21,167 nucleotides of DNA, taken from positions 1-21,167 of the IMG/VR virus record IMGVR_UViG_3300034198_030851; one strand, given 5' to 3'. Below the pieces are notes generated by a model. The model was given only the letters and a program-made list of their open reading frames with translations, was not told the DNA's origin and made no database searches. Position 1 is the first letter of the stretch. Each line of letters opens with the position of its first letter. Source of the stretch: a virus. A program made the position numbers and the translations under genes. Shown piece after piece: positions 4,442 to 9,654 of this stretch.

Positions 4442-4470
4442 AAAAAGGAGCCAAATTGGCTCCTTTTTTT
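4442..4470. terminator. Bidirectional intrinsic terminator between converging operons
   Basis: An 11-bp stem (A-run plus GGAGCC at 4442-4452, GGCTCC plus T-run at 4458-4468) encloses a 5-base loop and ends in a T-tract on the + strand. The complementary A-run makes it work on the - strand as well. It follows gp32 by about 20 bases and overlaps the stop codon of the converging 718-residue gene. Confidence 0.9.
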
Positions 4471-6625
4471 ATGCTAATAATACTTTAAGTCTTGTTGTAG
4501 TATCTGGTTTAATTTCAAATAAGTCCGCTAATCTTTGATGACCATCCAATGGTTCTACATTACCTGGATTATTTGGATCTATTGTATTTAATACCGGTGA
4601 TTTTGGTTTTGATATATTTTGTTGTACATTTTGTGATTTTGGTATATTTGTTGTAGATTGCAATTGTCTTGCTTGTATTTCTTTTTGTATTGATGTTTCT
4701 CGTAATATGGGACCTGTTTTTGGTTGTGGTTGCTGTGGTGTAGCTACTAAAGTATTATCAATAATAGATGGATCAGAGCGACCTATATTTTGAGGTGGTA
4801 TAAAATTAGCTGTAGTATCTATTTTATTAGTTGTAAATTGTTTATTATTATCTATTTTTTGCTGTGGCATAGCTACTGTAGTAATACCCATAGTAGATGC
4901 ATCAGAGCGACCTATATTTTGAGGTGGTGGTATAAAATTAGCTGTAGTATCTATTTTATTAGTTGTAAATTGTTGATTATTATCTATATTTGATTGTGGT
5001 GCAACTACTGCAGTAATACCCATAGTAGATGCATCAGAACGACTTATATTTTGAGGTGGTATAAAATTAGCTGTAGTATCTATTTTATTAGTTGTAAATT
5101 GTTGATTATCTATTTTTTGCTGATTAACTTTTGTAGATGATATTGATGGATTTGAAGATATAGATGTTTCTACTAAATTATTAATTGTTTTTGATTGTCC
5201 AGGTTTAAAATCTTTATCATCAAAAGATAAGCTTCTAGCAGCATTAAGTCTACCTTGAACTCTTGTTTCATGTCCTTTAATACCATAAACACCTGATGCT
5301 ATAGCACTAGGAAAATCTTCTTTCATTGAAGATTCTGTAATATCAATTTTACTAAATTCTTCTAAAAATATATTTGGATCATTACCCGATTTAGTTAAAG
5401 CTTCTTTAATTCTATTTTCTGTTCTAGAAAGATTTGTTGAATTTTTTCCCTGTTGAACTTGTCTATCAGCAAAATATCCAATAACATTTAAATTTTGAGA
5501 TATTTTTTCTGGAACACCGGCTTTTGCTAAATTAGAAGAAGCATTTGAAAGATAATTATCTCTATAATGCTCTGATTCTGCTTTTCTTAATAATTCTGGT
5601 TTAGATGATGCAAGTTGTTGCCATTGTATATCAAATTCATTTGTACCTGCTTTTTCTGTTAATCCAAGTTCTGGATGATCTTTAACAAATTGTTGAAGAT
5701 CTCCACCTTTATGATCCGGGCCTGTATTTAGTCCAAGAATACCATAAGATTTTGAATTATTAGCATCTGCCGAAATATTAGCTGAACCTTTTGTTCCAGT
5801 TTCTAATTTTTCAGTTGGATTTAAAAACTTATTTATTCCAACAACTGATAAACCTGCTATTACACCGGTAGCTGTAGATTTAGCAAGATTACCTCCAATA
5901 TTACCACTAGTACCACCAATATTATTAACACTACTAAGACTCTTTGAATTACCACTTATATTAATATTTGTACGCTTAAAATTAAGCATTTCTTGTTTTT
6001 TTACTATTTCAGCAAGCTTTTCATTTATTTTAATAAGTAATTCAATACTTTCTTTTTGTTCTGAAACAACTGTTTTAAGTTCTTCACTTTCAATTTTTGT
6101 TTCAATTAATGTATTATCAATAGCTGCTGTTTTTAAATTGTTTTCTTTTGATTGATTTTCATCTTTTTGTTTTTTAAAAATTGCATCAATAATACCTGCT
6201 AATAAAGGAGCAGATGCATCAAAACGACTTGAAAGATTTTTTATTGTAGGTGTAATTATTTTAGAAAATAAATTTTGTGATTCAATATTTTGTGATTCAA
6301 TATTTTTTTTATTTCTTTTTTTAACATATTTTCTTTTTTTAATTTTTTTACTATTTTTTTCTACAATAATTACTTCATCTTCATTATTTTCATTATCTTC
6401 ACTTTCTTTTTCTGGTACAGATGACAATGCTTCTTCTATTTGTTTTCTTGCAGATTCACCAAGCAATGGAATATCTTTAGGATATATTTGTCCTACTGGA
6501 GTATTGTTTTTATGTATTTTTTTATTTTTTTCTAGATTCATTTCATTTAATAAATCTTTTAACTGTTTTGCAGCTGGAGTATCACCTAATTTATTTAAAT
6601 CTATATCTTGTGCTTGTAATACCAT
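4469..6625 (-). CDS. 718-aa modular late protein with cell-wall-hydrolase-like domain; candidate tail component
   Basis: I do not recognise the whole protein. Residues 1-115 are charged and end in a very basic stretch (KKIKKRKYVKKRNKK). Residues about 119-215 (LFSKIITPTIKNL..., then a coiled coil) resemble the N-terminus of the neighbouring 616-residue protein. Residues about 290-468 resemble a chitosanase/lysozyme-like module of phage and type VI spike proteins: SYGILGLN, GGDLQQFV, a GTNEFDIQWQQLA segment, then RQVQQG, IFLEEFSKID and ETRVQGRL near the end. Residues about 502-630 hold three 43-residue repeats, and the rest is low-complexity Gln/Pro/Thr. The start is 3 bases after the upstream stop, with GGA in front. 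As the last gene of a tail operon it is plausibly a virion protein that opens the cell wall. The hydrolase call rests on pattern memory. Confidence 0.6.
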   Translation of the reverse strand: MVLQAQDIDLNKLGDTPAAKQLKDLLNEMNLEKNKKIHKNNTPVGQIYPKDIPLLGESARKQIEEALSSVPEKESEDNENNEDEVIIVEKNSKKIKKRKYVKKRNKKNIESQNIESQNLFSKIITPTIKNLSSRFDASAPLLAGIIDAIFKKQKDENQSKENNLKTAAIDNTLIETKIESEELKTVVSEQKESIELLIKINEKLAEIVKKQEMLNFKRTNINISGNSKSLSSVNNIGGTSGNIGGNLAKSTATGVIAGLSVVGINKFLNPTEKLETGTKGSANISADANNSKSYGILGLNTGPDHKGGDLQQFVKDHPELGLTEKAGTNEFDIQWQQLASSKPELLRKAESEHYRDNYLSNASSNLAKAGVPEKISQNLNVIGYFADRQVQQGKNSTNLSRTENRIKEALTKSGNDPNIFLEEFSKIDITESSMKEDFPSAIASGVYGIKGHETRVQGRLNAARSLSFDDKDFKPGQSKTINNLVETSISSNPSISSTKVNQQKIDNQQFTTNKIDTTANFIPPQNISRSDASTMGITAVVAPQSNIDNNQQFTTNKIDTTANFIPPPQNIGRSDASTMGITTVAMPQQKIDNNKQFTTNKIDTTANFIPPQNIGRSDPSIIDNTLVATPQQPQPKTGPILRETSIQKEIQARQLQSTTNIPKSQNVQQNISKPKSPVLNTIDPNNPGNVEPLDGHQRLADLFEIKPDTTTRLKVLLA
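4730..5119 (-). repeat. Three tandem 129-132-nt coding repeats
   Basis: Each unit encodes about 43 residues centred on QFTTNKIDTTANFIPP and SRSDAST/GRSDAST. On the + strand the first two copies are spaced by 129 bases; the next interval is 132 because one unit carries an extra proline codon. The copies are nearly identical at DNA level, which suggests recent duplication. Confidence 0.9.
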
Positions 6626-6628
6626 TTA

Positions 6629-8479
6629 TTAAAATCCAAAAAAACTAATTACTCTTTGTGAAAATGAAACATCTGTATTAGATAAAGCTGGTTTGGTTGG
6701 TGTCGGTAGTAATACTTGATTATTATTTAATTGTTTTTGTGTAGTATTTATTTGCATATTATTCTGTTGTTTTGGTATATTTGATAATTCATCTTGTTGT
6801 GATAATATATTGATAGTTTGACCATTAGTTTGTTTTGGTGGTAAAAGTTTTTGTGTATCAATATTAGGTACATAATATAAATCATCAGTTAATAAAGGAA
6901 GACTTGTAACTGAATTTTTATTTGTATATTCTAATATTTCTTTAATTTTTTGAATACTTAATTTTGAATATTCAATTTTTTCTTTAAGATCTTTTATTTT
7001 ATTATTTCTATATTCTTTTGATTCTGGTGTTTGTTGTATAAGACGACTATTAAGATTTTGTTCAAAAACCGAAAGCATACTTTTATTTTTTTCTAATTCA
7101 AATTGTAATTTTTCTAAACGTTCTTGATAAGATTTTGGTGCATTTTCAATTGCTTTTTGCTCTTCTCTTTTTTGATTATAATCATTAATAGAAAGTATTT
7201 TATTTGTTAGTTCTTTTTTTGTTATTTGAGTTGCTATTTCACCTTTGTTTTGTGATTTTTGGTTTTGTTTTTTGGTAGTCCATTCAACTAATTTTTTAGC
7301 TTTTTCTTCTATATCTTTTTTAATTTTTTCTTTACGTAAAGCTGGAGCGTGCTCATAATCATCACTTAATTGTAATAGTTCTTTTCTTAAATAATCAATT
7401 GAATCTAAATCTTGATCATGATTTTTAATACTTTCAATTAAAATTTTAGTACCTTCTTCACCAAGATATCCTCCAATAATTCCACCAACAACACCACCAG
7501 CTAATGCACCCCAAGGTCCAAGAACTGAACCAGCTGCAGCAAAAGTAGAAGCACCAACTTCCATACCGCCATAAGTACCAGCACCTACAGCAATTGCTTG
7601 AGTCTCGCTTCCAGTTTGATTATAAGTATTTGCTACTGTAAGACCTATAGCTCCAATAGTAGCAATTTTACTAATTGTTTGTGATGCTTTTCCTGATAAT
7701 ATATCAAATATTGGTGTTTGACTTTTAATTGTTGCAGGGGTTCTTATTTGTGTTGCATCTATCTTAGGTTCTATTTTAGGTTCTATCTTTTGTGTTGCAT
7801 CTATCTTAGGTTCTATTTTAGGTTCTATCTTTTGTGTAGATTCTACTTTAGGTTCTACTTTAGGTTCTAATGTAGGTTTTACTTCAGGTTCTACTTTAGG
7901 TTCTAATGCAGGTTTTACTTTAGGTTCTACTTTAGGTTCTATTTTAGGTTCTATCTTTTGTGTAGGTTCTACTTTAGGTTCTAATGTAGGTTTTACTTCA
8001 GGTTCTACTTTAGGTTCTAATGTAGGTTTTACTTCAGGTTCTACTTTTGGTTCTATCTTTTGTGTAGATTCTACTTTAGGTTCTACTTTAGGTTCTATTT
8101 TTTGTATAGGTTCTACTTTTGGTTCTATCTTTGGTTGTGGTAAATTAATATTATTACCGGTATTATTATTTTCTAATACTTTACCAAGTTTTTCAACATT
8201 ATTAAGAATTGATTTTAATATAGAATTTTGTTGATTGATTATTTCAACTGAACGTTCTACTAATTGAGTGTTTTCAACTAATTGTTGTTCTTGTTTTAAT
8301 ATTGTTTCTGTTTCTTCTGATTTTATATTTTCTTTTTTTGATTGAAATGCTAAATCAATAGTTTTTGCTAATGTTGGTGATGCTTTATTAAATTGATTTG
8401 CTAGTCCTTTAACACTAGCACGTGCAATACCTTTAGCAATATTGCCTGTATTATAAAATATATTACTAAGAATTGCCAT
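6629..8479 (-). CDS. 616-aa low-complexity late protein, candidate tape-measure or inner tail protein
   Basis: No family is recognisable from sequence alone. Residues 1-60 (NIFYNTGNIAKGIARASVK..., SPTLAKTIDLAF) resemble residues about 118-155 of the downstream 718-residue protein. Residues 61-105 are coiled coil. Residues 115-244 are an extended Glu-Pro-Lys-Val rod. Residues about 270-345 are hydrophobic and glycine-rich (VLGPWGALAGGVVGGIIGGY), as in many tape-measure proteins. Residues 350-525 are long charged helices, and the tail is Gln/Asn/Pro-rich. Length is close to T4 tape measure gp29 (590). The start overlaps the holin stop (TAATG at 8479-8481). Position downstream of gp26 and its frameshift signal fits a tape measure, but the assignment is inference. 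Confidence 0.6.
   Translation of the reverse strand: MAILSNIFYNTGNIAKGIARASVKGLANQFNKASPTLAKTIDLAFQSKKENIKSEETETILKQEQQLVENTQLVERSVEIINQQNSILKSILNNVEKLGKVLENNNTGNNINLPQPKIEPKVEPIQKIEPKVEPKVESTQKIEPKVEPEVKPTLEPKVEPEVKPTLEPKVEPTQKIEPKIEPKVEPKVKPALEPKVEPEVKPTLEPKVEPKVESTQKIEPKIEPKIDATQKIEPKIEPKIDATQIRTPATIKSQTPIFDILSGKASQTISKIATIGAIGLTVANTYNQTGSETQAIAVGAGTYGGMEVGASTFAAAGSVLGPWGALAGGVVGGIIGGYLGEEGTKILIESIKNHDQDLDSIDYLRKELLQLSDDYEHAPALRKEKIKKDIEEKAKKLVEWTTKKQNQKSQNKGEIATQITKKELTNKILSINDYNQKREEQKAIENAPKSYQERLEKLQFELEKNKSMLSVFEQNLNSRLIQQTPESKEYRNNKIKDLKEKIEYSKLSIQKIKEILEYTNKNSVTSLPLLTDDLYYVPNIDTQKLLPPKQTNGQTINILSQQDELSNIPKQQNNMQINTTQKQLNNNQVLLPTPTKPALSNTDVSFSQRVISFFGF
7748..8137 (-). repeat. Glu-Pro-Lys-Val rod repeat
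   Basis: About 130 codons are built from short variants of EPKVEP, EVKPTL, ESTQKI and EPKIDATQ, with larger 12-codon blocks (EPKVEPEVKPTL) repeated. Proline every third to fourth residue with alternating charge predicts a stiff, extended rod, as in the Glu-Pro/Lys-Pro segment of TonB. It is coding sequence, not a CRISPR array. Confidence 0.9.
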
Positions 8480-8787
8480 TATGTTGTTGTTAGTCTAGCT
8501 AATTTTTCTTGTCCACGTGTCCATGAATTAATACCAAGAACAGCAGCAAAAGTAAAGTGAATAAAACCACCACTTGCAAGAGTCAAACTTTGCCAAGGCG
8601 TATATGTAAGTTGTAAACCAAAATTTTTACCAAATATTGGAATTAAAAGAGAAATTAAAGGAAATAATATAAAATCACATAAAACAATAAGCATATATAC
8701 CCAACCCATGGCTGGGCGCCAATACGCTTTAACCCAATGCTCATTAGCTGTATCATTATAAATTATGGTTTCTTTTACATCAGACAT
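8479..8787 (-). CDS. Holin-like small membrane protein
   Basis: The 102-residue product has a short cytoplasmic-type N-terminus, WVKAYWRPAMGWVYM leading into a long hydrophobic segment (about residues 26-52), a second one at about 66-87 (QSLTLASGGFIHFTFAAV), and a charged tail (RGQEKLARL). From memory the RPxMGWxYM start and SWxRGQEK end match a family annotated as phage holins of the '3TM' group, although I see only two clear segments. Holins time lysis by permeabilising the inner membrane. The ATG at 8787 is preferred over an upstream TTG; AGGA lies 11-12 bases ahead. It overlaps the gp26 frameshift extension by 8 bases and the downstream gene by one base. No endolysin gene is adjacent. Confidence 0.65.
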   Translation of the reverse strand: MSDVKETIIYNDTANEHWVKAYWRPAMGWVYMLIVLCDFILFPLISLLIPIFGKNFGLQLTYTPWQSLTLASGGFIHFTFAAVLGINSWTRGQEKLARLTTT

Positions 8788-8959
8788 TTTTTCTTTTTTC
8801 CTCAAGTTCTTTAAGATATTTGATTAACATTTCTACATAAATGTCACGTTCAAATGGAATTAAATTTTCAATTTCATCTATAGAATACTTATGATGCTGA
8901 GCCATTGAGAACATAGTAGTATAATAGTTCTCTAAATTATTATGGCTCAGCCCAATGTA
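8780..8959 (-). CDS. -1 frameshift extension of gp26 (gpGT-like), 59 codons
   Basis: In the -1 frame relative to gp26, 59 sense codons run from the slippery site to TGA at 8780-8782. The encoded segment (YIGLSHNNLENYYTT..., QHHKYSIDEIENLIPFERD, YVEMLIKYLKELEE) has the aromatic HHxYSxxEIExxxPFERD layout I associate with the second reading frame of tail-assembly chaperones and with short gp51-like proteins after gp26. No Shine-Dalgarno precedes the internal ATGs at 8914 or 8905, and conserved-looking sequence begins before them. The frame is closed just upstream of the slippery site by TGA. Expression by frameshifting would give a gp26 fusion of about 291 residues. T4 itself has gene 51 directly after 26; whether this is its equivalent is not certain. 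Confidence 0.65.
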   Translation of the reverse strand, partial: YIGLSHNNLENYYTTMFSMAQHHKYSIDEIENLIPFERDIYVEMLIKYLKELEEKRKNV

Positions 8960-8965
8960 AAAAAA
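8896..8965 (-). promoter_or_regulatory. Programmed -1 ribosomal frameshift signal
   Basis: Reading on the - strand, gp26 ends ...GAT TTT TTT ACA TTG GGC TGA. The seven Ts (8965-8959) form the heptamer T_TTT_TTT in the correct register. Seven bases later begins GCTGAGCCAT (8951-8942), perfectly complementary to ATGGCTCAGC (8905-8896), giving a 10-bp stem. The 36-base loop contains a second inverted repeat, GAGAAC (8932-8927) with GTTCTC (8912-8907). The zero-frame stop is inside the stem. Slippery heptamer, spacer and stem are all as expected for -1 frameshifting. Confidence 0.8.
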
Positions 8966-9654
8966 TCATTTATAGAATTCATTATAATTTTTCTAGCATT
9001 TCCATTTTGATTTACATAATTTAATTCATGATAAAGTGTTGGTGTATTATCAATAAAAGCTTGAATCTTTTCAAATGACTTTGCGTCTAAATTATCTAAA
9101 AATTCTTCCAATTCTTCTTTAGAAGCATCATCTGCTTCATAGATATCTTCATTATGATAAATTTTATCAATAGATTTTAAAATCAGTTCAAAATAAGACT
9201 CATCTTTAAACTTAAAAAAAGACTTATCATTAAAAATAGAAGCTTGTGGATAACGCATTTTAATAGATAATGATTTATTAACTTTAATTAAATTTTCAAT
9301 ATTTTCAGAAATATTTACTTTAATTTGTGATATGTCAATTTCAAAGTCATAAACTTGTTGATCTTCATTATCACGATAAGCCACTTTAGCAATATTGTTT
9401 ATTGAAACTGCTCGTAATTGAAGAAAAAGATATTCAAGATCAAAAATTGGCAGTTTATCAATATTAAAAGTAGTAGAAATAGCACAATTGTTTATTACTT
9501 GCTTAATTGCTCTAAACATATCTGTAACATCATTAGAACTTTTAGACATAAGAAGAATCTTTTCTTCTTTAACAAGAAAAGGTCTAAACATTTCTTTCTT
9601 TTTAGTAGAAGGAATTACAAATTCATATGTTGGATAATTTATTTTTGGTAACAT
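8947..9654 (-). CDS. 26: gp26 baseplate hub / T4_baseplate family protein
   Basis: The 235-residue product matches the T4 gp26 family. It starts MLPKINYPTYEFVIPST, followed by FRPFLVKEEKILLM, a VINNC segment, IDKLPIFDLEYLFLQLRAVS, a beta-rich middle domain and an acidic C-terminal helix region. T4 gp26 (208 residues) acts in baseplate hub assembly. Sequence and position suggest a role like tail-assembly chaperones that bind the tape measure. GGAG lies 5 bases before the ATG. The last five codons carry a slippery heptamer and a downstream stem, so a fraction of ribosomes may continue into a 59-codon extension. It follows the tube-like gene by 15 bases in the same late operon. Confidence 0.92.
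   Translation of the reverse strand: MLPKINYPTYEFVIPSTKKKEMFRPFLVKEEKILLMSKSSNDVTDMFRAIKQVINNCAISTTFNIDKLPIFDLEYLFLQLRAVSINNIAKVAYRDNEDQQVYDFEIDISQIKVNISENIENLIKVNKSLSIKMRYPQASIFNDKSFFKFKDESYFELILKSIDKIYHNEDIYEADDASKEELEEFLDNLDAKSFEKIQAFIDNTPTLYHELNYVNQNGNARKIIMNSINDFFTLG

Follow-up and report, generated by a model that had tools for sequence, protein, structure and literature searches.

The nearest classical systems of paired tail assembly chaperones (TAC) made by ribosomal frameshifting are gpG/gpGT of phage lambda, gpE/E' of P2 and their equivalents in Mu (Xu, Hendrix & Duda 2004). In T4-like phages, the tail-chaperone genes were identified by Vladimirov, Gautam & Davidson (2022, Virology 566:9-15). 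Two later papers citing that work mention polyT slippery sequences in the TAC-N genes of T4-like phages (PMC12846349) and some T4-like phages in which a short chaperone gene and a longer, fused one take the place of frameshifting (PMC10885494). In the record of Stupor, gp26 and gp51 are listed as tape measure protein assembly chaperones. The abstract of the T4-like study reportedly names genes 26 and 51. Here, we analyzed a 21,167-nucleotide (nt) stretch of an uncultured phage (IMG/VR record IMGVR_UViG_3300034198_030851, positions 1 to 21,167; hereafter, the window), which carries a gp26-type gene on the minus strand. The original prediction for this locus proposed a -1 frameshift that fuses gp26 to a gp51-type domain and makes a gpG/gpGT-like pair. 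The proposal is supported by the domains, the conserved heptamer, the contrast with split-type phages and the predicted fold, and we consider it very probable that gene 26 gives rise in this way to a TAC-N of 235 amino acids (aa) and a TAC-NC of 291 aa. The accompanying claim that no such frameshift is described for T4 gp26/gp51 fails, since one was reported in 2022 (Vladimirov et al., as cited in PMC10885494 and PMC12846349). The window is a clear further example of the known T4-like frameshift and not a discovery.

Slip site and reading frames of gene 26

The features of the locus, in window positions, are:

8947-9654, minus strand: gp26-type gene, zero-frame short form TAC-N, 235 aa (PF12322, phrog_150)
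8965-8959, minus strand: slippery heptamer T_TTT_TTT, in the gp26 frame
8958-8952, minus strand: spacer ACATTGG, 7 nt
8951-8896, minus strand: stem-loop with a 10-bp outer stem and a nested 6-bp stem (fold z -5.5)
8949-8947, minus strand: zero-frame stop TGA, three codons beyond the heptamer
8959-8780, minus strand: -1-frame extension of 59 codons plus stop, from codon TAC (8959) to GTC, with the stop TGA at 8782-8780

The 3' end of gp26 reads ..AAT GAT TTT TTT ACA TTG GGC TGA on the minus strand. The gp26 register of the heptamer was checked base by base, and the stop follows 9 nt after it, which places the slip site shortly before the gene end. The arms of the outer stem, GCTGAGCCAT (8951-8942) and ATGGCTCAGC (8905-8896), are paired at 10 of 10 positions, and the nested stem in the loop is formed by GAGAAC/GTTCTC. 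The RNA fold at this site has a computed energy of -23.2 kcal/mol, and none of 200 shuffled sequences was equally stable; the stem of the window is exceptionally strong. In the -1 frame, the codon directly 5' of the heptamer is TGA (8968-8966). Within gp26, open runs of at least 50 codons in this frame made up 0.2% of 5215 runs. The extension has its earliest ATG at codon 16 (8914-8912). The register, the 7-nt spacer, the perfect outer and nested repeats, the closing TGA and the 59 codons ending at 8780 had all been predicted, and every coordinate proved correct. The internal ATGs were also said to have no ribosome-binding site, and the first of them indeed has no clear one.

The zero-frame product belongs to the T4 gp26 family (PF12322, 7.6e-53; phrog_150, 1.8e-57). 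The -1 extension hits phrog_634 (the gp51 family, baseplate hub assembly catalyst; 2.1e-25) and is thereby identified as the gp51 C-terminal domain (TAC-C); it also matches, weakly, the C-terminal end of phrog_150. The predicted frameshift product would carry the peptide ..NDFFYIGLSHNN across the slip site. Matches to the -1 segment occur in 549 phage records by tblastn, and matches to gp26 in 611; most are from cyanophages, and Vibrio, Aeromonas, Sinorhizobium, Caulobacter and other phages are represented too. The expectation that the segment encodes a conserved domain was borne out. Its conservation starts 5' of the first -1 ATG of the window, which falls inside the conserved domain.

Conservation of the signal and its putative stimulators

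The comparison covered viral contigs found with the gp26 and extension queries together with nine annotated frameshift-type phages, and removal of identical sites left 156 non-redundant loci. The heptamer T_TTT_TTN stood in register in all 156 (T in 73, C in 70 and A in 13), and the gp51 domain lay in the -1 frame in 155 of 155 testable loci, the remaining locus ending at the gp26 stop. The codon before the two slip codons ended in T at every locus, with a varying residue (Asp, Ser, Asn and others), and the first Phe codon was always TTT; with pooled codon usage as the background, these two features together have a log10 p of -50, a value that is overstated because the loci are related. The second slip codon was TTT, TTC or TTA, which means that the nucleotides are kept even where Phe turns to Leu. 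Six T in register were found at 11 of 143 other Phe-Phe pairs of the same genes. In 151 of the 156 loci, the stretch from the preceding -1-frame stop to the heptamer had no ATG, GTG or TTG. The extension was 53-75 codons long, and its first start codon was at a median position of codon 14.

Just downstream of the heptamer, the mean fold z was -2.3 over 155 loci, with 65% of them below -1.5. The means at three control positions were -0.05, -0.28 and -0.06, and the elevation was confined to the slip site. The comparison of gp26 3' ends, which had been suggested as a check of the frameshift, revealed a kept register, a kept -1 frame and elevated structure at the site. In the 38 relatives of the window's type used for stem pairing and covariation, 88.7% of the cells of the outer stem were paired, as were 79% of those of the whole structure, compared with 34-40% when the structure was slid. 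In relatives with a stable stem, the commonest distance from the heptamer to the first paired base was 5-7 nt.

The frameshift signal of Escherichia coli dnaX consists of the slippery heptamer A_AAA_AAG, a downstream stem and a Shine-Dalgarno stimulator. In many relatives of the window, among them many cyanophage-type loci, GGAG, GAGG or AGGA motifs clustered at a fixed distance of 8-11 nt 5' of the heptamer; GGAGG/GAGGG elements within 25 nt of it are exemplified by loci L018, L155 and L170. The Glu codon at this upstream element was GAG in 35 of 53 Glu-Gly cases and in 20 of 96 cases elsewhere (odds ratio 7.4, p 6e-8). In the window, no Shine-Dalgarno-like element was found 5' of the heptamer. 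The strongest stems belonged to T_TTT_TTT loci without the upstream element (mean z -3.4) and the weakest to T_TTT_TTA loci (z about -0.6 to -0.7). Absence of the Shine-Dalgarno element was associated with a stronger stem (p 0.004, a statistic that ignores phylogeny), an inverse pattern that may reflect compensation or ancestry. We tentatively suggest that the stimulators are interchangeable: T_TTT_TTT lineages, including that of the window, would use a strong stem 5-7 nt downstream, many cyanophage-type loci would use a dnaX-like Shine-Dalgarno element 8-11 nt upstream, the stems of T_TTT_TTA loci would be the weakest, and, on the T4 line, a single duplication would have put two genes in place of the entire device. 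This stimulator pattern, with a stem in the window's lineage and an upstream element in many cyanophage-type loci, is possibly the new element of the finding.

Proposed chaperone function, the T4 line and rival readings

The AlphaFold model of gp26 (predicted local distance difference test, pLDDT, 89.4) was aligned to 872 candidate solved chains. The best matches were 3fgx (Z 7.6), the HK97 tail assembly chaperone 2ob9 (Z 6.9) and YqbN 3klu (Z 6.3), and the next one had a Z of 2.2. YqbN and RBSTP2171 (3fgx) are presumably prophage chaperone homologues. The Foldseek match of the model to 2ob9 was weak (E 0.97), and sequence searches of the PDB yielded no credible relative for either gp26 (best E 0.12) or T4 gp51. 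The -1 domain modelled alone was helical, with low confidence (pLDDT 68). The resemblance of the predicted gp26 fold supports the tail-chaperone reading.

In the proposed mechanism, most ribosomes would terminate at the stop of gene 26, yielding the short form. The stem-loop 7 nt further on would make some pause at T_TTT_TTT, where both Phe-tRNAs would re-pair one base back, and reading would resume in the -1 frame to give the long form, composed of gp26 and the gp51 C-terminal domain. By analogy with lambda gpG/gpGT, both forms would hold the tape measure protein while the tail is assembled. The analysis itself shows the sequence signal, its conservation, the domain identity and the predicted-fold resemblance; the slipping, its rate and the binding of the tape measure are what we infer. 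Several points weigh against this reading. The loci are kin, and their counts overstate independence. Stem covariation was modest (0.148 versus 0.127 in shuffled data, with most outer pairs varying little) and does not suffice as evidence on its own, and the stem lies in sequence under coding constraint. The structural matches cover only about residues 1-94 of gp26, all with Z <8, and neither of the two large open reading frames (ORFs) downstream, of 616 and 718 aa, matches the T4 tape-measure family PF25671.

The arrangement in T4 itself is different. PF12322 matches both T4 gp26 (8.8e-64) and T4 gp51 (3.9e-52), which makes them paralogues, and T4 gp51 is a full-length gp26 paralogue with the C-terminal domain (phrog_634) already fused. 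Separate genes 26 and 51, with no slip site in gp26, were found in T4, ECD7, Acj9, Aeromonas phage 31, Stupor, HY126 and RB43 (7/7). In an unrooted tree of the seven gp26 and seven gp51 proteins of this split type and 29 frameshift-type proteins, the split-type proteins together formed one side (99/95), opposite the 29 others; the gp51 proteins were one group (100/99), and the gp26 group was less firm (82/31). The simplest reading is that the T4 line underwent a single duplication and lost the slip site. The window is not of the split type, since its slip site is intact and its extension lies in the -1 frame, as seen on a 21-kb contig of an incomplete genome. In RB43 (L189, 2501-3794), a gp51-like gene is followed by an adjoining gp26-like gene on the same strand, while the two genes are divergent in the annotated T4-type relatives compared. 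The RB43 arrangement may be a relic of an early stage of the duplication.

Alternatively, the -1 segment could be a small independent gene (gp51) whose translation begins at the gp26 stop, by reinitiation or by translational coupling. Stand-alone gp51 is annotated in many GenBank records, and in some lineages an ATG overlaps the gp26 stop, as in the TGATG of Cr30. However, the first -1 ATG of the window comes after conservation has begun and has no clear ribosome-binding site, the first start codon is similarly late over the loci, and T4 gp51 is a fused protein. A separate gene also leaves the heptamer kept in 156/156 loci unexplained, and we regard this explanation as very unlikely.

Transcriptional slippage on the T run, yielding mixed mRNAs that encode the fused protein, would fit the seven T of the window and the longer T runs in a few relatives. 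Yet the run is broken after six T at about half of the loci (TTTTTTC in 70 and TTTTTTA in 13 of 156), and a run of six T is short for such slippage. The strict codon register and the structure at ribosome-stalling distance favour translation, which leaves slippage by the polymerase highly improbable. A decayed gp51 gene beside an incidental slip motif would recall the separate, longer gp51 kept in T4, but the -1 segment is conserved in hundreds of phage records, and the heptamer and the structure are kept in the relatives examined; this possibility is strongly disfavoured and close to negligible. The -1 frameshift is our preferred explanation.

Downstream genes and comparison with known systems

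Three genes follow gene 26 on the same strand:

8479-8787, minus strand: holin-like gene with three transmembrane segments, overlapping the extension end (PF11351, 1.6e-5; phrog_3427, 1.1e-10)
6629-8479, minus strand: 616-aa ORF, positional tape-measure candidate, weak PHROG matches
4469-6625, minus strand: 718-aa ORF containing repeats around TANFIPPQNI and matching, below threshold, a VgrG3-like C-terminal domain

The frameshift had been expected to reveal the tape measure downstream. A position directly after gp26 is not supported: the holin-like gene comes next, and the large ORFs beyond it have no PF25671 match. In Cr30 and phiM12, the equivalents of these ORFs are labelled as a tape measure or as resembling one, and BLASTP showed no similarity between the 616-aa ORF and the Cr30 gene annotated as tape measure. 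The 616-aa ORF contains a charged-proline repeat tract at 7482-7541. The sole megablast match of the window among phages, 60 bp of Escherichia phage EP335 at 91.7% identity, falls at this tract and is likely a low-complexity repeat. Elsewhere in the window, three tRNA genes for Arg (tct), Ser (gct) and Ile (tat) are clustered at 1887-2154 on the plus strand.

This uncultured phage and over 150 related loci support placing T4-like phages among the phages with frameshifted tail chaperones, with the separate genes 26 and 51 of T4 as the exception. In many phage records, the stand-alone gp51 should probably be replaced by a coding sequence joined across the -1 frameshift.

The likeness of the window pair to lambda gpG/gpGT is in its working and by analogy only, and, in contrast to lambda, P2 and Mu, a holin-like gene precedes any tape-measure candidate in the window. 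The predicted gp26 fold appears similar over residues 1-94 to HK97 2ob9, YqbN 3klu and RBSTP2171 3fgx (Z 6.3-7.6), whereas gp26 is about twice as long and its identity to them is 10-13%. With dnaX, the window shares a slippery heptamer and a downstream stem, and many relatives also have the Shine-Dalgarno-like element at 8-11 nt upstream; the window differs in having no such element and in using a T run, not A_AAA_AAG. The closest system is T4-like gp26 (TAC-N)/gp51 (TAC-NC), with which the window has in common the N-terminal family, the gp51 domain in the -1 frame and the in-frame heptamer near the stop. Compared with the T4-like chaperones of Vladimirov et al. (2022), it comes from a new uncultured lineage and has an exceptionally strong 10-bp stem.
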